A stretch of 33,210 nucleotides of DNA. It comes from a virus. The notes below the pieces were generated by a model, which did no database searches, was not told the DNA's origin, and was given only the letters and a program-made list of their open reading frames with translations. The DNA is taken from IMG/VR virus record IMGVR_UViG_3300023110_000115, positions 1 through 33,210 of that record, one strand, 5' to 3'. Positions 8,717 to 32,452 of the stretch are shown one piece after another. The translations under genes were made by a program, and so were the position numbers. Every line of letters begins with the position of its first letter. Position 1 is the first letter of the stretch.

Positions 8717-10462
8717 ATGGCAAACGTAATTTTAGGAAAAGTAGCCATCACTTGGAAAGGTGAGTTCGACACCAATCTTACATATCATGAACAGGATGTT
8801 GTGAGCAATGGTGCTGATACATTCATCTGTAAGGTGGCACAATCAACATCAGGTGCTTTCGATGTAACTGAATGGGATACCTTTGCTCAAGGAACCCGTG
8901 ATGTCGCAACAACACCAGGAGATTTGATTTATCATGATGGCTATCAACTACGTCGATTGCCAATTGGTGATGAAGGAGAAGTTCTTTCAATCAATGCTGA
9001 TACAAATATGCCTGAATGGGTTACACCATATACAACAAGCTCAAATCGTGTTAAAAGTTTATTGCGATTTGAAGGTGTTCCAATGAACGGATATGAACAA
9101 TTTTGTATGATGGAAGATGATTCAGTAAGATGCTGGGGGCATGGTGGTCATTATGGTCTTGGGCTAGGAACAAATAATTCTAGCCGCCCAAAAACACATC
9201 GTATGCCTTTCCCTCTTGGATTTCCAGGAATTGCGTATCATGCTGTTGATAATACTCCAATGCTTGTTAAATCACATCAGTATGGTTTTGCTTTGATCGA
9301 CAAAAATGGAGACCTTTGGACTTGGGGTGAAAATCAAAATGGTGTTTGTGGTACAAATAGTAACAACTACATGCCAAAAAATGTAATGAAACGCAATGAC
9401 GGTGCGAATCCATTGTATGATGGAAATCCAGGAGCAACAAAAGTAGTAGATGTTCAAGTTCCTTGTGGTTCACAAAACAATAACTGTATGGCAGTTATTG
9501 GTGTGAACGGTCTTCTTTATATGACAGGTTATAATGCTCATGGCCAGCTTGGTCGTGGTGATACATCAGAAAGTTCCTGGTTTGTTAAGTCTGCATATTT
9601 TGATAATCTAAAAACTTCAGAAGGTGTGACTGTAGAAAAAGTTCGTTTAGGACGAGCAGAATACACACATGGACTTTCAATTGATAGTACAGGAAGATTA
9701 CATGTATGGGGTTATAATGGTGATTATCAATTAGGAAATAACTCATCGACAAATGCTGCCACACCATTTCATCTGAACAGCGGATCAATCACAAATCAAG
9801 TGGTCACAGATATTTGGGCTGGACCGCATAGTTCATTCTGCCGTCTTGCTGATAAGTCTCTTCATGTATGGGGTGGAGATCGATACGGTTCTCATGGTAT
9901 TGGTGTGAATAGCGGAAGTTCTACAGTCAATTCTTCTTCACGAATTCCAGTTCCTTCTACTGATGATGTTGAGCTATTCTGCCATGATACTTACTATGAT
10001 TATCCCGCATCTTACATTTATAAGACTGATAATAAATTATACTCTACTGGATATAATGGAGTTGGAAATCTTGGTGTTGGTGATACTTCTGCCCGAGCCT
10101 CGTGGACAGAAGTAGATATGAGTATGTTTAAAAATGGTGAACTTCCAATCAAGATTTTCTGTAACGGTCAAAATGGACATAATGTATTTGGTGTTCTTAC
10201 AGACCAAGGACGAGTGTATGCTTGTGGATATAATGGTTACGGTCAATTAGGAGTCGGTGACCAAAGTAACAAAACTAGATTGACTGAAGCTATTTGTGAT
10301 AAATTTATTGTAGATGCTATTTTTGTTGGACATGAACGATATATGAATCTTCACGTTCTTACAAGTGATGGTCAGCTTTTAATTAGTGGTTGTGGTGATA
10401 ATTACCAATTGGCGATGCCTCATTCAACTGAATATCCTTCTTTAGCTCCTGTAGCATTTTAA
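8717..10462 (+). CDS. Tail-fibre protein with RCC1 beta-propeller, paralogue
   Basis: This 581-residue protein has the same design as the gene at 6912: a W-x-G...DVV N-terminal module (AITWKGEFDTNLTYHEQDVV), then clear RCC1 repeats. These include SVRCWGHGGHYGLGLG, GDLWTWGENQNGVCG, GLLYMTGYNAHGQLGRGD, GRLHVWGYNGDYQLG, KLYSTGYNGVGNLGVGD and GRVYACGYNGYGQLGVGD. At least seven blades can be counted, matching the usual seven-bladed propeller. The RCC1 consensus is much better kept than in 6912. A GGAAT ribosome site lies upstream. It is probably a receptor-binding adhesin, with the ligand unknown. Confidence 0.75.
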   Translation: MANVILGKVAITWKGEFDTNLTYHEQDVVSNGADTFICKVAQSTSGAFDVTEWDTFAQGTRDVATTPGDLIYHDGYQLRRLPIGDEGEVLSINADTNMPEWVTPYTTSSNRVKSLLRFEGVPMNGYEQFCMMEDDSVRCWGHGGHYGLGLGTNNSSRPKTHRMPFPLGFPGIAYHAVDNTPMLVKSHQYGFALIDKNGDLWTWGENQNGVCGTNSNNYMPKNVMKRNDGANPLYDGNPGATKVVDVQVPCGSQNNNCMAVIGVNGLLYMTGYNAHGQLGRGDTSESSWFVKSAYFDNLKTSEGVTVEKVRLGRAEYTHGLSIDSTGRLHVWGYNGDYQLGNNSSTNAATPFHLNSGSITNQVVTDIWAGPHSSFCRLADKSLHVWGGDRYGSHGIGVNSGSSTVNSSSRIPVPSTDDVELFCHDTYYDYPASYIYKTDNKLYSTGYNGVGNLGVGDTSARASWTEVDMSMFKNGELPIKIFCNGQNGHNVFGVLTDQGRVYACGYNGYGQLGVGDQSNKTRLTEAICDKFIVDAIFVGHERYMNLHVLTSDGQLLISGCGDNYQLAMPHSTEYPSLAPVAF

Positions 10463-14939: not shown

Positions 14940-15593
14940 ATGCCAAACAATAGTGTAATTTATGTAAATCGTATTTCAAATCGTTCAGGAATCTATCAGC
15001 TTTTGAATGCTGAACATTTTGATTCAAACAATCAAATTCTGTTAAACGAAACAGAAGCATTGTTTCGTTTTTCAAATGCAAATAGCGGTGTGAGAATTGA
15101 ACAGACGGGAACGGGGAACTCAATCACAGCAAATAATTTCATCGTGGATGCGTCTGGAAGCGTCACCAGCGGCACTTTATCATCAAGCGTGAACTTCCCC
15201 ACCGGTCATATGAAATTGCTCAATTTTTCGCAAATTGGCTACGGTCCTGGATTGACCGAAAACACAATTCTGATTTCTCTGGATCTCACAGGGCTTCACC
15301 AGGGCTCGAAAGTTTATCTGACTGGCTCAGTCAATCTTGAAAGAATTAGCGCAGACACAACAGATTCAGCACAATTATCCATTGATGGAGATGATATGAC
15401 AACATTACTTGTCGACGGCTCGGTTGGATACGGAGCCGCTGATAGCCAAAACATTCACATACCCTTTGCCTGTCTCAGTGATTCGATCACAGCAGATTCA
15501 ACCTCATTTGACTTGAGACTTCATAATTTCACAGGAACTGCTGAATTCAATATCAATGGCGGAACAGTCACCACATTCGAAGTGTTCTCATGA
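14940..15593 (+). CDS. Tail-fibre tip protein
   Basis: This 217-residue protein contains NANSGVRIEQTGTGNSI, a peptide typical of phage fibre and tail-spike linkers, then SSSVNFPTGHMKLL, a diverged form of the FPAGHVIQ motif at 588 and 1479. The rest is beta-rich, with a final strand TVTTFEVFS. By eye the region from about 14500 to here is richer in G and C than its surroundings, which could mark exchange of the tip. Its stop overlaps the flavodoxin-fold gene at 15590. Confidence 0.65.
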   Translation: MPNNSVIYVNRISNRSGIYQLLNAEHFDSNNQILLNETEALFRFSNANSGVRIEQTGTGNSITANNFIVDASGSVTSGTLSSSVNFPTGHMKLLNFSQIGYGPGLTENTILISLDLTGLHQGSKVYLTGSVNLERISADTTDSAQLSIDGDDMTTLLVDGSVGYGAADSQNIHIPFACLSDSITADSTSFDLRLHNFTGTAEFNINGGTVTTFEVFS

Positions 15594-16195
15594 AAGTTCT
15601 GATCATCATAGGCTATCATAAAAAAGATAGCTTTAATCACCAAGGAATTGTTAAGACTTTAGTTGAAGAACTTTCATCTGTTCGTAAAGAATTTGAAATT
15701 ATCGATCTTTATGAAGATGAATTTCATGCGGCATTTCAAGCAGAAAAAAATAGTGAATTGATTCAAAAATATAAAGAGAAGATCACAGAAGCAACACATT
15801 TGATCTTTGTGTCACCTGTTTGGTGGTTTCGTTGTACTTCAATGTTGGAAGGATTCTTTGATCAGATTTTTGTGCCAGGTTTTGCTTATAAGTTTAAGCA
15901 AATCACAAAGACATATGGTTTACCCATGCCTTTGTTAAAGAATAAGATTGTGTATACTTATTTGACACACGGCGCTCCCGCATTGCCAGTTCATACAATC
16001 TATTTGAATTCAGTGAAGTGGAGATTACAGTTAGGTGTGTTCAGCTTTTGCTTTGGATGGTTTCGTCCTACCATACGACAATTCTTTTCAGTTCCATTCT
16101 GTAGTGAAAAGAAGAGAGAAAAAATGTTAGGACGAGTGAGAAAAGATATTCAATATGAAATCAATGAATTCAACTATCTTGATTGGGGTTCCTGA
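15590..16195 (+). CDS. Flavodoxin-fold NAD(P)H oxidoreductase
   Basis: This 201-residue protein resembles the Flavodoxin_2 (NAD(P)H quinone dehydrogenase) family. It has a beta1 strand MKVLIIIGYHKKDS followed by a phosphate-loop region, IDLYEDEFHAAFQ, then THLIFVSPVWWFRCTSMLEG, FFDQIFVPGFAY and a THGAP segment. Such enzymes use FMN or FAD to reduce quinones, azo or nitro compounds with NAD(P)H. It is coupled by ATGA to a fibre gene, an unexpected place for a cytoplasmic enzyme. A paralogue of identical length is on the other strand at 28023. Its 3' end overlaps the convergent gene at 16174. Confidence 0.8.
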   Translation: MKVLIIIGYHKKDSFNHQGIVKTLVEELSSVRKEFEIIDLYEDEFHAAFQAEKNSELIQKYKEKITEATHLIFVSPVWWFRCTSMLEGFFDQIFVPGFAYKFKQITKTYGLPMPLLKNKIVYTYLTHGAPALPVHTIYLNSVKWRLQLGVFSFCFGWFRPTIRQFFSVPFCSEKKREKMLGRVRKDIQYEINEFNYLDWGS

Positions 16196-17121: not shown

Positions 17122-18168
17122 TTATAGATTTCCGTTTACACCCTCAACGAAATAATTCATTGAAAGAAGTTCTGAATCAGTTGGAACAATTCCATCTTGA
17201 ATAGCGAGGTCACCATCACGATTGTAAATAGGTCCTTCGAATACAACAAATCGTCCTGACATAATATCTTGCTTCTTCTTATTTACAATATCTTTTATTT
17301 TTGTATGAACCATTGGTCCAAATTTTGATAAGTCAATGATACCAGTCTCAATGCCCCACCATTCGCTTGAAGAAGTCCATGAACCATCTTCAATTCGTTT
17401 CATTACATCGACATAGTATCGTCCCCAGTTGAAAATAGGTGCGGTCAAGTGAGCCTTGGGCCCATAAAGAGTCATATCAGAATCGTTACCAATCGCAAAT
17501 TTTCCTCGTTTATCTGCAGCTTGTGTTGCGGCGGCTGAATCGGTTGTGATATGAACAACATCTGCTCCATTGTCCATCAATGTGTTTGCCGCAGCGCCTT
17601 CTTTTGAAGGATCAAACCAAGAATTGACCCAAAGAACATTGACTTCTGCATCAGGATTCACTGATCGGGCACCAAGAGTGAACGCATTGATATGCCGAAC
17701 AATCTCAGGAATTGGGTGTGAACCAATGATACCAATGTTATCTGTTTTTGTTGTCATACCAGCAACCATACCGGCAAGATATTTTGCTTGATACATTCTT
17801 GCAAAATAGTTGCCCATATTGTCTGCTGTTTTAAATCCAGAACAATGTAAAAAGATTGTGTCGGGAAATTGTTTCGCAACTTCAAGAGTTGGATCCATAA
17901 ACCCAAAGCTAGTTGTAAAGATTACATCATAACCACGCCTTGCTAAATTACGAAGAACTCTCTGCGAATCAGTCTCAGGAACAGATTCAACATAAGTTGT
18001 TTCGTAGCCAGCGGCTTCAAGTTCTTGACGTCCTAGATCGTGGGCGTAGGTCCAACCACCGTCCCCTACAGGCCCTACATAGACGAATGCGGCTTTTGGT
18101 TTATCAGCGTAAGCAATTGAAATAAAGAGAGAAAAGATAAGAGAGAAGAGGAAGAGGAATTTTTTCAT
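17122..18168 (-). CDS. BMP-family periplasmic substrate-binding protein
   Basis: This 348-residue protein has a signal peptide (residues 1-21, cut after AYA). It then shows the basic-membrane-protein/PnrA pattern: KAAFVYVGPVGDGGWTYAHD, GYDVIFTTSFGFMDPTLEVA, GNYFARMYQAKYLAGMVAG and GADVVHITTDSAA. Cellular relatives bind purine nucleosides or similar ligands for an ABC transporter; no permease or ATPase is encoded here, so it would have to work with the host transporter. No lipobox Cys follows the signal, so it is likely soluble in the periplasm. A GAAAGGAAATA leader gives a good ribosome site. Finding this host-type gene complete in a phage is unusual. Confidence 0.85.
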   Translation of the reverse strand: MKKFLFLFSLIFSLFISIAYADKPKAAFVYVGPVGDGGWTYAHDLGRQELEAAGYETTYVESVPETDSQRVLRNLARRGYDVIFTTSFGFMDPTLEVAKQFPDTIFLHCSGFKTADNMGNYFARMYQAKYLAGMVAGMTTKTDNIGIIGSHPIPEIVRHINAFTLGARSVNPDAEVNVLWVNSWFDPSKEGAAANTLMDNGADVVHITTDSAAATQAADKRGKFAIGNDSDMTLYGPKAHLTAPIFNWGRYYVDVMKRIEDGSWTSSSEWWGIETGIIDLSKFGPMVHTKIKDIVNKKKQDIMSGRFVVFEGPIYNRDGDLAIQDGIVPTDSELLSMNYFVEGVNGNL

Positions 18169-19553: not shown

Positions 19554-19571
19554 GGCACTCCGCAGAGTGCC
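19554..19571 (-). terminator. Hairpin upstream of methyltransferase gene
   Basis: GGCACTC and GAGTGCC pair perfectly (7 bp) around a four-base loop. On the minus strand it is followed by CTACTCTTTTAAATT and then the methyltransferase ATG. It could be a weak terminator or attenuator within the operon, or a leader structure controlling translation. The T-run is imperfect. Confidence 0.4.
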
Positions 19572-21853: not shown

Positions 21854-21897
21854 GGTCATCTCTCGTTGAGGTTAGTCATCAATCACTTAACGATCAG

Positions 21898-21925
21898 ATC
21901 ATATCAGATTGGTTCAAAAAGTCAA
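21898..21925 (-). promoter_or_regulatory. Sigma70-like early promoter with GATC operator-like site
   Basis: On the minus strand: TTGACT, 16 bases, TATGAT. The -10 element and the 6 bases after it form the 12-mer TATGATCTGATC, found identically in the promoter at 27986-28013. The promoter begins right after the stop of the secreted-protein gene and drives the block starting at 21853. Confidence 0.75.
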
Positions 21926-21932
21926 GGCTTTT

Positions 21933-22640
21933 TTAAAAAATTTCTCTTGGGCGTCCTAAGCCACTGGGAAGCTGGTCTCCGTGAAGACCATCTGGGCGAA
22001 AACGGTCCGTCTGATATGGACCGTATTGTTGATTGTCCGCAATCAGAATCTTATATTCACACTCTTCAAGAAATAAATTGAAGGGAATTTCTCCAATATA
22101 TTCTGCTCCTGAATTCACTTCATGCCCTTTCATTCGTAATAAATGAGATCCTGAATTCAAATCTCCATAGTCTGTTTCAATTGTATTCTCAGTGAACAGA
22201 CACCGATCCAATGAATAATGAAGATGAATATAAAGACTGAGTGGTTGATAACCAGATTTTTCTTCTGGTCCTTTTAGTTGAAGAAGGATTCTTGTTTGAA
22301 ACATTCCCGAAGCAATGTCTTTTTTTGTTTTTCTTCGAACAATTTTTGCAGTGTTTAGTTGATTTCTTGAAGAAGCAGAAAGTTTTTCCGTTGAAGATAA
22401 ATGTTTTCCATTTTGAAGTTCTTCCAAGTATTCAGTGGAAACATCAATGTTATGAAACATGTTATAGTTTTTCAAAGCCATCAGATAAGCATCATACACT
22501 GAGCGGTCTAATCTTTCAAACCAGCGAGAGATTCCTACCGCATAAACATTCCCATTTTTTTCAAATACGATTTCGTCTTCCCAAGCATAGATTGTAAAAG
22601 ATACGAAAAGATACAAACATAATATAAAAATTTTTTTCAT
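21933..22640 (-). CDS. Secreted protein of unknown function
   Basis: This 235-residue protein has a signal peptide (MKKIFILCLYLFVSFTIYA, cleavage predicted after residue 19) with no lipobox. The mature protein has EDEIVFEKNGNVYAVGISRW, a helical middle and a beta-rich second half (GMFQTRILLQLKGPEE, LSLYIHLHYSLD, YKILIADNQQYG). No domain is recognised. A GAGG ribosome site precedes the ATG. It ends the Fe-S/redox transcription unit, and the next early promoter starts directly behind its stop. Confidence 0.65.
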   Translation of the reverse strand: MKKIFILCLYLFVSFTIYAWEDEIVFEKNGNVYAVGISRWFERLDRSVYDAYLMALKNYNMFHNIDVSTEYLEELQNGKHLSSTEKLSASSRNQLNTAKIVRRKTKKDIASGMFQTRILLQLKGPEEKSGYQPLSLYIHLHYSLDRCLFTENTIETDYGDLNSGSHLLRMKGHEVNSGAEYIGEIPFNLFLEECEYKILIADNQQYGPYQTDRFRPDGLHGDQLPSGLGRPREIF

Positions 22641-23651: not shown

Positions 23652-24163
23652 CGATTCTCCATCGCATTTACATATTGTTGGTCAGAGTCGAATGTCATTT
23701 CTTCATTAGCTTTTCTTTCGGATGATTTGACCATTAGACCATTCACAAAATAGTAATCAACATCATCATCAAATCGTAAACTATACAAAGGTGCTTGGTC
23801 ATCTTTCATGCGAAGTTTATCAAGTATATCTTGATTTTCAATTCTTTCTTTACGAATCAAGCGGCATGGTGAAAAGTTGAGACCTTTCAGCAATCGACTG
23901 ATTTCTAAATGTTCAGCAGCAACTGCTTGATTTGTATCAAAATAATAAAAGACAGTATCGCTTGAGCAGTAGATTGGCTTTTCTGTATTTTCAAATTGTA
24001 GACAAAGTAAATCTTCTTTGATATAGAAAGCCTTTGGTCTTTCAATCACTTGAGCAATTTTCATTTGACCATTTTTCATTACAACAGCCTCATCTCCTAT
24101 TCGAAACTTTCTTATTTTGCAATAAAAATCTGGACAATAAACTCTTGTTTGATGACTAAACAT
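23648..24163 (-). CDS. Degenerate Hint-domain protein
   Basis: In this 171-residue protein, residues 15-60 read CKIRKFRIGDEAVVMKNGQ then KIAQVIERPK. Further on are LLCLQFENTEKPIYCSSDTV, AVAAEHL and, near residue 140, LYSLRFDDDVDYYFVNGLMV. This order (G-D-x-V, processed-strand segment, A-x-x-L, Y-x-L...Y-F-V-N-G-L-x-V) is that of Hint/intein folds. The nucleophilic N-terminal Cys, the T-x-x-H of block B and the terminal His-Asn are absent or replaced (VKSS), so self-splicing is not expected. It lies directly downstream of the intein-bearing IscU gene, overlapping it by 8 bases. Its role is unknown. Confidence 0.6.
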   Translation of the reverse strand: MFSHQTRVYCPDFYCKIRKFRIGDEAVVMKNGQMKIAQVIERPKAFYIKEDLLCLQFENTEKPIYCSSDTVFYYFDTNQAVAAEHLEISRLLKGLNFSPCRLIRKERIENQDILDKLRMKDDQAPLYSLRFDDDVDYYFVNGLMVKSSERKANEEMTFDSDQQYVNAMENR

Positions 24164-25025
24164 TTTGTGTTTCCTTTAATTGTTTCTTTTTTCGATAATC
24201 GGCAATTGCTGCTTTAATTGCGTCTTCGGCAAGGACGCTGCAGTGGATCTTAACTGGCGGAAGGGATAATTCGTCGACAATATCAGTATTTCGAATAGAT
24301 AATGCCTCATCAACAGTCATATCTTTAACCCATTCAGTTGCAAGTGAACTTGATGCCAAGGCAGATCCACACCCAAATGTCAAAAACTTAGCATCTACTA
24401 TCTTTTCATTTTCATCAACTTCAATTTGAAGTTTCATCACATCGCCACAATTTTTTGCAACAATACCTGAATAATATTCATGGTCAAAATGTGTGATTAC
24501 AATATAATTATTTGTTTCTTCGACTTGTAGCGTATAACAATCTTCCGTTACAGGATCAATATCTTCACGAAGCATGATTAGTTTGTGTGCAGATTCAAAT
24601 AAGTCCTGATAATCGGTACCTATTTCAGCACGAACACCACGAATAAAATCATTTATACCAATTTGATTAATAGGACGATAACCATGTTCGAGTGTGAGAA
24701 ATTCGTGGTCATTTGTCACACTAAGTTGACGACCTTCTACTTCATACGTATATAGTTCTTTTTTACCAGAATAAACTACTTTGGCTGTTTTGAACTGATA
24801 TCGTTGTTCAGGAATATTATAAGACCATACATTGATTCCTCTTCCTAATTCATAAGCATCTTTCAGTGAGATATACTGTTGAATTGGTGTGTGAATCAAA
24901 GTATCACCACTAAAACATTCAGGTGCTCCTACAAGACCTGTGCCTACGTTATCTTTATTTTTATCGAGAGAACCGACATTACGAGGATTATTATAATGAT
25001 CAAGTACTTCTTTTGAATATGACAT
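24156..25025 (-). CDS. iscU: IscU Fe-S scaffold interrupted by a mini-intein
   Basis: The 289-residue precursor has an N-extein, residues 1-36 (SYSKEVLDHYNNPRNVGSLD ... GLVGAPE). The C-extein is residues 193-289, starting CGDVMKLQ with GCGSALASSSLATEWV, LPPVKIHCSVLAEDAIKAAI. Joined, they give a 133-residue IscU with all three scaffold Cys and the LPPVK motif that binds the host HscA chaperone. Residues 37-192 are the intein. IscU assembles 2Fe-2S clusters with the cysteine desulfurase IscS, which is not encoded here and would come from the host. The ATG has an AGGA site. It sits 9 bases after the Bax-inhibitor gene. Confidence 0.92.
   Translation of the reverse strand: MSYSKEVLDHYNNPRNVGSLDKNKDNVGTGLVGAPECFSGDTLIHTPIQQYISLKDAYELGRGINVWSYNIPEQRYQFKTAKVVYSGKKELYTYEVEGRQLSVTNDHEFLTLEHGYRPINQIGINDFIRGVRAEIGTDYQDLFESAHKLIMLREDIDPVTEDCYTLQVEETNNYIVITHFDHEYYSGIVAKNCGDVMKLQIEVDENEKIVDAKFLTFGCGSALASSSLATEWVKDMTVDEALSIRNTDIVDELSLPPVKIHCSVLAEDAIKAAIADYRKKKQLKETQNV
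24450..24917 (-). mobile_element. Mini-intein in IscU
   Basis: This is a 156-residue in-frame insert between Glu36 and the first scaffold Cys. It starts CFSGDTLIHTPI (block A, Cys1), has QLSVTNDHEFLTL (block B T-x-x-H) and EDCYTLQVEETNNYIVI (block F). It ends YYSGIVAKN followed by Cys (block G, terminal Asn and +1 Cys). No homing endonuclease domain fits in this length. The usual penultimate His is Lys, which occurs in some inteins and may slow Asn cyclisation. The +1 Cys is the conserved catalytic Cys of IscU itself. Confidence 0.9.
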
Positions 25026-25034
25026 AGAATTTTC

Positions 25035-25745
25035 CTAATCGTTATTTGTTGATGAATATCCAGTCAAACTCAGAATCAATTGAAAAAGATTGATAAAATT
25101 GAGATATAAACTAATTGCAAATTTGATTCCATATCTTTCATCACCACCAGTTTCTGCATAGATTTGTTTTGCTGTTTGAACATCATAAGCGGTGAGACCA
25201 AGAAAAACAATAATTCCGACAATGCTAATAATCAATGAAAATAAAGAACTCATGAAAAACATATTAATCAAACTTGCAATGATCACACCAATCAGTCCAA
25301 AGAAAAGCAGTGAACCTAAACCGGACAAGTCTCTTTTGGTAATTGTGCCATAGGTAGCCATTGCACCAAAAAGCAAGGTTGTTGTCAAAAATGCCTCAAC
25401 AATACTGGTGGCACTATAGATTGCAAAAACACTGCTCAGTGACAGTCCTAAGACTCCTGTGAATGAATAATAAAAGGCGGTGAGCGTTGAGAGTGGCCAG
25501 TCTTGTCCTTTGAAACTGTACCAAAGGATCATGCCGAGTGGAGCAAGAAAGACAATCCAGGATGTGATGCCTGAAAGCAGAACAGTGAAAAGTCCGGTGG
25601 AATAAACAAGGTAGGCAACAATTCCGCTAACACCAAGACCACCTGCGGTGTGCTTGTACATGTTGTTCATGAACGAAACAAGGCCTTGTTCGCCCCCCGA
25701 AGATGGTTGAAATTGTTGATCGAAATTTGATTGAACGAATGCCAT
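25035..25745 (-). CDS. Bax inhibitor-1 family membrane protein
   Basis: This 236-residue protein has about seven hydrophobic spans and the family landmarks: MYKHTAGGLGVSGIVAYLVY at the first span, GTITKRDLSGLGSLLFFGLI, LGLTAYDVQTAKQIYAE, and a final span AISLYLNFINLFQLILSL. Bacterial relatives (YbhL/YccA/YetJ) are inner-membrane proteins linked to calcium leak and to FtsH control. YccA-type proteins can inhibit FtsH. A phage copy could protect phage proteins from FtsH or delay cell death (inference). A strong AGGAGG ribosome site precedes the ATG, and a late-type box lies about 30 bases upstream. Confidence 0.88.
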   Translation of the reverse strand: MAFVQSNFDQQFQPSSGGEQGLVSFMNNMYKHTAGGLGVSGIVAYLVYSTGLFTVLLSGITSWIVFLAPLGMILWYSFKGQDWPLSTLTAFYYSFTGVLGLSLSSVFAIYSATSIVEAFLTTTLLFGAMATYGTITKRDLSGLGSLLFFGLIGVIIASLINMFFMSSLFSLIISIVGIIVFLGLTAYDVQTAKQIYAETGGDERYGIKFAISLYLNFINLFQLILSLTGYSSTNND

Positions 25746-27033: not shown

Positions 27034-27612
27034 TTATCCTTTGCTGGCATAAACCTCATCCAAAGATTTATACACTTTTTCTCCTGAAGTTTCTCCTTTG
27101 AGAGCATTCAAAATATTTTCTGGTTTTGTTTCTCCATATGGATCTGTAGGACAGTTGTCAGAAAATCCTGGCTCGACAAACCACTCTTCAATATTTTCAT
27201 CATTGATAATCACGGCATAACGCCAAGAACGCATACCAAATCCTTCTGGATGTTTTTCGACGAGCATTCCCATTTTACGAGTGAATTCACCACTTCCATC
27301 GGGAATAACCTTGACATTCTTCAACCCTTGATCTTGTGCCCATTTATTCATCACATAACTGTCATTGACAGATAGACAATAAATTTCATCAATTCCCTGT
27401 GCTTTGAATTCATCATACATTTTTTCAAATGTAGGTAATTGAAGTGTTGAGCAGGTTGGTGTGAATGCACCAGGCAAAGAGAAAAGAACTACTTTCTTAC
27501 CACTAAAATATTCACTTGAGGTGACATCCTGCCAGCGATAAGGATTTTCTCCACCTACAGATTCATCACGAACTCGAGTTCTAAATACAACGCTTGGAAC
27601 TTTTCCTAACAT
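27034..27612 (-). CDS. Prx5-type peroxiredoxin
   Basis: This 192-residue protein has the peroxidatic motif PGAFTPTCS with Cys54, preceded by KKVVLFSL. It then has LPTFEKMYDEFKAQGIDEIY, CLSVNDSYVMNKWAQDQ and the late Arg in MRSWRYAVIINDENI, which is the Prx5/hybrid-type peroxiredoxin layout. It reduces peroxides using glutathione, glutaredoxin or thioredoxin; no C-terminal glutaredoxin domain is fused. A Cys at about residue 158 (DNCPTD) might be a resolving Cys. An AGGA ribosome site precedes the ATG. Its place beside the Fe-S genes suggests protection of clusters from oxidants (inference). Confidence 0.9.
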   Translation of the reverse strand: MLGKVPSVVFRTRVRDESVGGENPYRWQDVTSSEYFSGKKVVLFSLPGAFTPTCSTLQLPTFEKMYDEFKAQGIDEIYCLSVNDSYVMNKWAQDQGLKNVKVIPDGSGEFTRKMGMLVEKHPEGFGMRSWRYAVIINDENIEEWFVEPGFSDNCPTDPYGETKPENILNALKGETSGEKVYKSLDEVYASKG

Positions 27613-27945: not shown

Positions 27946-27985
27946 ATCAAACCTCACTTGAATAATTATTTCAATCAATGATCAG

Positions 27986-28013
27986 ATCATAACAGACCAG
28001 ATAGAAAAGTCAA
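27986..28013 (-). promoter_or_regulatory. Sigma70-like early promoter with GATC operator-like site
   Basis: On the minus strand: TTGACT, 16 bases, TATGAT, followed by CTGATC. It has the same spacing and the same 12-mer as the promoter at 21898-21925. The stretch TGATCAGATCA is a near-perfect palindrome overlapping the -10 and start region. It heads the redox block. Confidence 0.75.
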
Positions 28014-28022
28014 GAACTTTTT

Positions 28023-28628
28023 TTAAGAAAACCAATCATTTTCATTCCACTTGTCAATCTCACGGTCAATGTCTTTGTAAACTCTCTTGAGGTATTTTTT
28101 TCTTTTTTTGTCTGAGCAAAACGGAACAGAGAAAAACTGACGAATTGTAGGAGAGAACCAGCCAAAGACAAAACTAAAAACTCCTAATTTCAATCTCCAT
28201 TTTACAGAATTCAAATAGATTGTATGAACCGGTAGAGCGGGTGCACCATGTGTCAAATAAGCAAAAACTTTTTTATTTGACAAATTTGGTTTTGGTATGC
28301 CATAGGTCTTGGTGACTTGACGAAAGTTGTAAGCAAACCCAGGAACAAATATTTGATCGAAAAATCCTTCAAGCATTGATGTGCAACGAAACCACCAAAC
28401 AGGACTTACAAAAACGATGTGAGTTGCTTCTCGAATTTTTTCTTGATAATACTTGATGAGTTCTTTGTTTTTTTCTGCTTGAAATGCAGCATGAAACTCA
28501 TCCTCATATAGGTCAATTACCTGACAAACTTTTCCTCGATGATCGGCAACTTTTTTGATTTCCTCGACAATTCCAGAATGACAGAAACTGTCTTTTTTGT
28601 GATAGCCGATGATGACTAAAATCTTCAT
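28023..28628 (-). CDS. Flavodoxin-fold NAD(P)H oxidoreductase, second copy
   Basis: This 201-residue protein is a paralogue of the gene at 15590, of the same length. Long blocks are shared (DLYEDEFHAAFQAEKN, FVSPVWWFRCTSMLEGFFDQ, ALPVHTIYLNSVKWRL), while the loops differ. It is on the opposite strand, so the two copies form an inverted pair about 12 kb apart. It is coupled by ATGA to the gene at 28625. As a Flavodoxin_2 enzyme it would pass electrons from NAD(P)H to quinones or other acceptors; the duplicated copy suggests a useful dose or different timing. Confidence 0.8.
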   Translation of the reverse strand: MKILVIIGYHKKDSFCHSGIVEEIKKVADHRGKVCQVIDLYEDEFHAAFQAEKNKELIKYYQEKIREATHIVFVSPVWWFRCTSMLEGFFDQIFVPGFAYNFRQVTKTYGIPKPNLSNKKVFAYLTHGAPALPVHTIYLNSVKWRLKLGVFSFVFGWFSPTIRQFFSVPFCSDKKRKKYLKRVYKDIDREIDKWNENDWFS

Positions 28629-30989: not shown

Positions 30990-30997
30990 TATTTATG
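30990..30997 (-). promoter_or_regulatory. Possible late-type box, minus strand
   Basis: CATAAATA on the minus strand, at the very end of the gene at 30993 and 45 bases before the ATG at 30944. It resembles GATAAATA with one change. Confidence 0.35.
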
Positions 30998-31370
30998 ACT
31001 TTCCTGTTTCGTCTATCAAAGATTCTTGAATTATTTCAGAAATCAAGTCATTGAGTGTGATGTTTCTTTTATGAGCTTGGAGTGAAAGTCCAACAATTAC
31101 TTCATCGCTCAGTTCAAGAGTCACTTCAACTTCTTTGTCCGAATCTTCCATTTCTTCTCCTTCCTTATCAACCGTTTCAAATAAATTCGTTTCTGGTTCA
31201 ACGTTTAGAATATTTGTGCCAAAGAAACCTAATTCTGCTTGGTCTTCGTAAAATTCATAATCATCATCTTCTTCATTTTTTTCAGTTTTTGACGATATAT
31301 TAATTTGTCGAAGAAGTTTACGAATTTCAACCAATTCTCTTTGCATTTCACCAAGTTCATTTCCTTTCAT
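30993..31370 (-). CDS. Possible ribbon-helix-helix regulator
   Basis: In this 125-residue protein, residues 1-25 are helical (EMQRELVEIRKLLRQ) and residues 30-80 are highly acidic. Residues 80-118 (VEVTLELSDEVIVGLSLQAH then KRNITLNDLISEIIQESL) have the strand-helix-helix pattern of MetJ/Arc-type DNA-binding domains. It could be an early transcription regulator acting on the phage or host. It is coupled by ATGA to the gene at 31367. The domain match is by eye only. Confidence 0.5.
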   Translation of the reverse strand: MKGNELGEMQRELVEIRKLLRQINISSKTEKNEEDDDYEFYEDQAELGFFGTNILNVEPETNLFETVDKEGEEMEDSDKEVEVTLELSDEVIVGLSLQAHKRNITLNDLISEIIQESLIDETGKS

Positions 31371-31672: not shown

Positions 31673-31912
31673 TCAAAAAGAATCAATTGTATCTTGATAT
31701 GTATCTTCTACATGCTGAATCGGAAAAATTGAAAAATTATCTACATCTACAATTTTCAGTCGATGATTTTTGCAATGTTTTCGTATGGTTGATTCCGAGA
31801 AATTAAATATGCCCAAATTTTGATCAATGACGATTGTTTGTGTCTCAGCTTCCTCCTTGATGTATTTCTTTAATCGAACTTCATGGTCACTGTAGTTGAA
31901 AAAGAATTTCAT
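31673..31912 (-). CDS. Hypothetical early phage protein
   Basis: This 79-residue protein (MKFFFNYSDHEVRLKKYIKE, TQTIVIDQNLGIFNFSESTI, then RKHCKNHRLKIVDVDNFSIF) is probably a small alpha/beta protein, possibly with a helix-turn-helix-like segment at SESTIRKHCKNHRL. An AAGGA ribosome site precedes the ATG. It is the first gene behind the overlapping late and early promoters at 31946-31986. Function unknown. Confidence 0.6.
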   Translation of the reverse strand: MKFFFNYSDHEVRLKKYIKEEAETQTIVIDQNLGIFNFSESTIRKHCKNHRLKIVDVDNFSIFPIQHVEDTYQDTIDSF

Positions 31913-31945
31913 AGATTCCTTGATTAGTGTTGATGATTGAGCTTA

Positions 31946-31952
31946 TATTTAG
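31946..31952 (-). promoter_or_regulatory. Putative late promoter box, minus strand
   Basis: CTAAATA on the minus strand, 33 bases before the ATG at 31912. It sits at the predicted RNA start of the early promoter at 31958-31986, so this gene block may be transcribed both early and late. Confidence 0.45.
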
Positions 31953-31957
31953 ACTAC

Positions 31958-31986
31958 ATTCTAACACAGTTCGAATCAAAAGTCAA
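31958..31986 (-). promoter_or_regulatory. Sigma70-like early promoter
   Basis: On the minus strand: TTGACT, 17 bases, TAGAAT. The -35 matches the other two minus-strand early promoters, and the predicted RNA start is about 40 bases before the ATG at 31912, as in those cases. It lacks the GATC 12-mer. Confidence 0.65.
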
Positions 31987-32017
31987 GTCAAAAAGATCAG
32001 AAGGTTCAAACAAAGGC

Positions 32018-32055
32018 AACCGAGGCTACGCCTCGGTTGAGCGGCTACGCCGCTC
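32018..32055. repeat. Twin GC-rich hairpins with GGCTACGCC cores
   Basis: Hairpin 1 (32018-32038) has a 9-bp perfect stem; hairpin 2 (32039-32055) has a 7-bp perfect stem. Both have TAC loops and share the core GGCTACGCC, while the outer stem bases differ but remain paired. They are far richer in G and C than their surroundings. They lie between divergent promoters, where a terminator would not be expected, although an insulating role is possible. Confidence 0.85.
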
Positions 32056-32067
32056 AGTCCGGCTCGA

Positions 32068-32120
32068 TGGTGAAGGAAAAGGAAATATCTAGTACTTTAA
32101 TTAATACATTTCCTTCACCA
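32068..32120. repeat. 12-bp perfect inverted repeat
   Basis: TGGTGAAGGAAA (32068-32079) and TTTCCTTCACCA (32109-32120) enclose 29 AT-rich bases that include TTAATTAA. It ends just before the CTAAATA box at 32122. With the twin hairpins it makes a 100-base structured block in the 249-base divergent gap. Confidence 0.85.
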
Positions 32121-32121
32121 A

Positions 32122-32128
32122 CTAAATA
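32122..32128 (+). promoter_or_regulatory. Putative late promoter box
   Basis: CTAAATA, 33 bases before the GTG at 32162. Same box and spacing as at 5922 and 31946. Confidence 0.5.
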
Positions 32129-32161
32129 TAAGTATATTTTGAATATTTCAAAAATTGCAAT

Positions 32162-32452
32162 GTGAAAAATAAAACATTTCTTTTACTACAAGCAAAACTT
32201 CTCTACATATATCAAAAACTGCATTGGTGGATGCCAAAACAGGAAGGTGAACTTTTGTTTGTTCGTAAGTATGCTAAATCATTGAGGTTTTTATATGAAG
32301 TTGTTTTGAAAAAGATTGGGAAAAAAGATATGAAAGAAAAACAAGAAGAAGAAAAAAAAGATTTTGCCGCCAATAATTTTTTCCGTATTATCAATGGGCG
32401 CAAGACACCTGACGAAAAAGACGCTGATGACGAAAACGTTGCCGGAGTATAA
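32162..32452 (+). CDS. Hypothetical phage protein
   Basis: This 96-residue protein is basic, with a Lys-rich middle (KKIGKKDMKEKQEEEKKDF) and an acidic end (EKDADDENVAGV). The GTG at 32162 has no clear ribosome site; an ATG at 32230 is an alternative start. The N-terminal part (LLLQAKLLYIYQKLHWWMPK) is amphipathic. No family is recognised. It precedes the DUF6356-like gene by 10 bases. Confidence 0.5.
   Translation: MKNKTFLLLQAKLLYIYQKLHWWMPKQEGELLFVRKYAKSLRFLYEVVLKKIGKKDMKEKQEEEKKDFAANNFFRIINGRKTPDEKDADDENVAGV

Follow-up and report, generated by a model that had tools for sequence, protein, structure and literature searches.

Gene layout at the divergence point

The sequence analysed here, referred to below as the window, is a virus record of 33,210 bases. 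Tail-fibre genes are transcribed rightward on its left side, and a long leftward operon extends across the middle. The hairpin block described below lies at a point where gene direction diverges, between ORF 31912, the first leftward ORF (31673 to 31912, minus strand; 79 amino acids, ATG start), and ORF 32162, the first rightward ORF (32162 to 32452, plus strand; 96 amino acids, GTG start). These two ORFs bear out the divergent transcription that a preliminary description had placed at the block. Protein searches with ORFs 32162, 31673 and 29059 did not find relatives. The neighbouring DUF6356 gene has four relatives, with which gene order is not shared, and no syntenic relative was found.

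The DUF6356 gene led to a relative contig of 48.6 kb, L207, whose proteins match head-closure (neck), tail-sheath stabiliser, DNA end protector and baseplate-hub families. On these matches L207 is taken to be T4-type. Because L207 and the window have early-promoter-like blocks in common, the window is treated here as a fragment of a T4-type phage.

Promoter-like sites around the block

The hexamer most enriched 15 to 70 nt upstream of the 48 listed genes is TAAATA, which precedes 10 of the 48 against an expectation of 1.2; the top heptamer in the same set is ATAAATA. The window contains two copies, and no others, of the 11-bp late-promoter-like motif CTAAATATAAG, in divergent orientation. The rightward copy (32122 to 32132, plus strand) places TAAATA 33 nt upstream of the GTG at 32162, and the leftward copy (31942 to 31952, minus strand) places it 33 nt upstream of the ATG at 31912; together the two copies make an 11-bp inverted repeat. 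At 31958 to 31986 on the minus strand, TTGACT-17-TAGAAT, preceded at its -10 element by TG, is a putative leftward early promoter of sigma-70-like type and is similar to the phage's other early promoters. Promoter-like sites of both kinds, early and late, thus flank the divergence point, as the preliminary description had proposed. Elsewhere in the window, an early-promoter-like block of about 52 nt is present in two copies that are 75% alike (21883 to 21934 and 27971 to 28022, minus strand), and several copies of it are found in L207 as well.

The late promoter is TATAAATA in T4 and NATAAATA in cyanophage S-PM2 (PMC2984593). The enrichment of TAAATA matches these sequences, whereas the motif in the window is CTAAATA or ATAAATA. 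Early and late promoters overlap in RB49, and this is thought to hold for S-PM2 too (PMC2984593); early and late promoter-like sites likewise overlap upstream of ORF 31912. Unlike those T4-type early and late regions, the region studied here has a cluster of hairpins between divergent promoters. Since the hairpins sit between these promoters, the leftward and the rightward main transcripts would both be expected to begin beyond them, and because the late-promoter-like motifs on both sides face away from the block, the block is probably not within the main mRNAs.

Twin hairpins and an inverted repeat

Hairpin 1 (32017 to 32039) is CAACCGAGGC-TAC-GCCTCGGTTG, a perfect 10-bp stem with a 3-nt loop. 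Hairpin 2 (32038 to 32056), which overlaps it by two bases, is TGAGCGGC-TAC-GCCGCTCA, a perfect 8-bp stem also with a 3-nt loop. Both are GC-rich triloop hairpins built on a common 9-nt core, GGCTACGCC. Outside GGC-TAC-GCC their sequences diverge and are still paired: 4 of the 5 comparable pairs of the outer stems differ between the two, with pairing intact in both. A perfect 12-bp inverted repeat follows at 32068 to 32120, its arms, TGGTGAAGGAAA (32068 to 32079) and TTTCCTTCACCA (32109 to 32120), separated by a 29-nt AT-rich spacer. Twin hairpins with a shared core and differing outer stems, and an inverted repeat around AT-rich DNA, had been described for this block, and both are present, with small corrections to the coordinates.

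The 33,210 bases contain no other perfect triloop hairpin of at least 8 bp, and no other 12-bp inverted repeat whose gap is at most 40 nt. As a control for these counts the intergenic region was subjected to 3000 dinucleotide shuffles, of which 24 contained at least one such hairpin, none contained two, and 4 contained such an inverted repeat. The hairpins are real and exceed chance expectation. Folding of the block also departs strongly from that of shuffled sequence, with z-scores of -6.6 as DNA and, as RNA, of -5.3 for the plus strand and -5.5 for the minus strand. At another site in the window, a GC-rich hairpin, GGCACTCTGCGGAGTGCC, stands directly upstream of ORF 19538 (19554 to 19571, minus strand).

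If the two hairpins descend from one another, the differences at the outer pairs, with pairing retained, argue for selection on pairing over recognition of the double-stranded form. A double-stranded protein-binding site, which the preliminary description had listed among the possible functions, is accordingly less likely for the twin hairpins, since a conserved half-site would not be expected to change outside GGC-TAC-GCC while remaining paired. In one form of the idea the 12-bp repeat, perhaps together with the CTAAATATAAG pair, would provide operator-like dyads bound by a regulator of the divergent promoters. The repeat stops 1 nt short of the rightward late-promoter-like motif, and a weak match to an Arc-like repressor is encoded nearby (30993 to 31370, E 2e-4). 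Direct repeats of at least 30 nt in the window do not include the block, which counts against this explanation, and we consider it quite unlikely.

Terminator-like features

The perfect 10-bp and 8-bp stems supply the stable GC-rich hairpin of an intrinsic (Rho-independent) terminator, and in a consensus scan hairpin 1 was terminator-like, in the leftward direction only. The best leftward tail behind it, TTGCCTTTGTTTGAA, has a D score of 10.5; 29% of random tails from the window placed behind the hairpin 1 stem score as well. Rightward tails contain no T-run. After the random-tail control the tail was dropped as positive evidence for a terminator, the U-tract directly behind the hairpin being no better than background. 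The block resembles tandem intrinsic terminators in having two successive GC-rich hairpins and a T-rich tail leftward; it differs from them in position, the hairpins being upstream of divergent promoters and not behind an operon, and in having a tail that does not exceed chance.

Search for copies and relatives

The repeated core had also been taken as a possible small mobile palindrome. The core GGCTACGCC has no occurrence in the window beyond the two hairpins and none in nine viral records reached via neighbouring genes. Across 398 genomes from a single bacterial phylum, which may not be that of the host, AGGCTACGCCT is not enriched relative to its reversed control and reaches at most 5 copies per genome. 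The searches do not favour mobility, and a REP-like mobile or repeated palindrome was rejected, as many copies were not found in the window, the nine viral records or the 398 bacterial genomes.

A strict scan for twin hairpins gave no viral matches and three bacterial ones. The latter lie in GC-rich DNA, pair over 4 to 5 bp on the two sides of the core, and are overlapped by ORFs in both of the loci for which ORFs were listed; on these grounds they were set aside as probable chance coding matches. When the spacer was loosened, the scan of viral contigs returned, among the matches listed, a few extended palindromes of 6 to 7 bp containing the core. No further copy of the inverted repeat turned up in a scan of viral sequences, and DNA similarity searches against phages and plasmids produced no convincing match to the block. 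All Rfam matches fell short of the gathering score (E 1.8 or more), and hence gave no known family; the titles of literature on the core sequence look unrelated among the matches listed. The structure was not found in any relative, and there is therefore no cross-species covariation among the records searched.

These results bear on the suggestion that the block is a remnant or neutral palindrome, duplicated or inserted without function. The pair is known as one copy only among the sequences searched and conservation was not found, both of which a neutral palindrome would explain. Decay would, however, be expected to erode pairing, and both hairpins and the repeat are perfectly paired; nor did the window, the nine viral records or the 398 bacterial genomes contain a source repeat. 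We regard neutrality as unlikely.

GC skew and the possibility of a DNA element

A replication origin or nicking site had likewise been proposed, with GC skew as a check. The skew changes at 32 kb, and the change mirrors the switch in coding strand; it reverses again at about 16 kb, where genes converge. Because the skew follows gene direction, its change is no evidence for an origin, and an origin based on GC skew was rejected.

The hairpins might still act as DNA, in cruciform or single-stranded form, as a replication start, a primase-loading site or a nicking site. Perfect palindromes placed between divergent promoters, the strong DNA folding score and the AT-rich DNA within the 12-bp repeat are consistent with such an element, and divergent transcription would leave negative supercoils between the promoters. 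Against it stand the skew, which tracks gene direction at the divergent and the convergent point alike, and the nearby ORFs, among which no replication-initiation gene was recognised in those scanned. T4-type origins are not known to be hairpin clusters, and we count this against the DNA element too. Its probability appears low.

A proposed folded RNA

The block is best explained, tentatively, as a compact element selected to fold when single-stranded, most likely acting as RNA. RNA is preferred among the single-strand readings, and an RNA, whether a leftward structured RNA or an insulator, is more likely than a double-stranded site, judging from the kept pairing. A candidate promoter for such an RNA is a weak leftward promoter-like site at 32131 to 32160 (minus strand), TTGCAA-18-TATACT, which agrees with the consensus at 9 of 12 positions. 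Its predicted start is at about 32124, about 4 nt ahead of the 12-bp inverted repeat. The site does not have the TTGAC form of the clear early promoters of this phage, and sites graded 9/12 occur near shuffle or background frequency. For a leftward RNA from 32124 to 32008 a clean three-hairpin fold is predicted, with a minimum free energy of -45.8 kcal/mol and a z-score of -4.4. The folding energy is thus below that of shuffled sequence for this RNA, as it is for the block on either strand.

The analysis shows the structures, their departure from chance, the promoter-like layout and the pairing retained in both stems; transcription of the block, together with the direction, start, end and any function of the transcript, is inferred. 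A short leftward transcript would start at about 32124, with the 12-bp repeat forming a 5' stem-loop, followed by hairpin 2 and then hairpin 1, and would end or stall before reaching 31986 and the leftward early promoter. The transcript might serve as a small structured RNA, as a block shielding the early promoter from stray leftward transcription, or as both. Structures that strongly exceed those of shuffled sequence, a promoter-like site at the right distance and the terminator-like listing of hairpin 1 in the leftward direction alone favour this folded RNA; the low grade of that site, the unremarkable T-rich tail, the lack of an Rfam match above chance and the failure of the searches to find the structure in a relative count against it. 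A structured RNA at the block is possible on this evidence. It is very unlikely that the block represents a new class of phage regulatory element, in which three hairpins, as RNA or DNA, form a module placed between back-to-back late promoters of T4 type and coordinate or insulate the two divergent operons.

Phages encode small structured RNAs, of which T4 RNAs C and D are examples. The block, a compact intergenic stretch that holds several stem-loops in about 110 nt, is like them in general layout only; unlike them, it has a weak promoter and no Rfam match above chance. Should it act in folded form, as RNA or DNA, it would show how a T4-type phage separates divergent early and late operons, and would add one more structured non-coding element to the T4-type group. 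If it does not, it is a well-formed, unexplained palindrome cluster of one viral contig.

Other genes of the fragment

Several other genes of the window gave matches to protein families. The protein encoded at 8717 to 10462 (plus strand) has strong matches to phage families that carry the annotation regulator of chromosome condensation, and a weaker one to a tail-fibre family. A PnrA-like ABC substrate-binding protein (17122 to 18168), a Bax1-I family membrane protein (25035 to 25745) and a peroxiredoxin (27034 to 27612) are all phage-encoded on the minus strand within one leftward block. The Flavodoxin_2 family is represented by two separate genes, at 15590 to 16195 (plus strand) and 28023 to 28628 (minus strand). 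A NifU-like protein (24156 to 25025, minus strand) is interrupted by an intein-like splicing domain, for which the Pfam Intein_splicing match (E 7.5e-7) is below the family cut-off. The insert follows the NifU N-terminus and extends from Cys37 to about Asn191, after which NifU picks up again at a CGD motif. Alignments with viral relatives cover the parts on either side of the insert.
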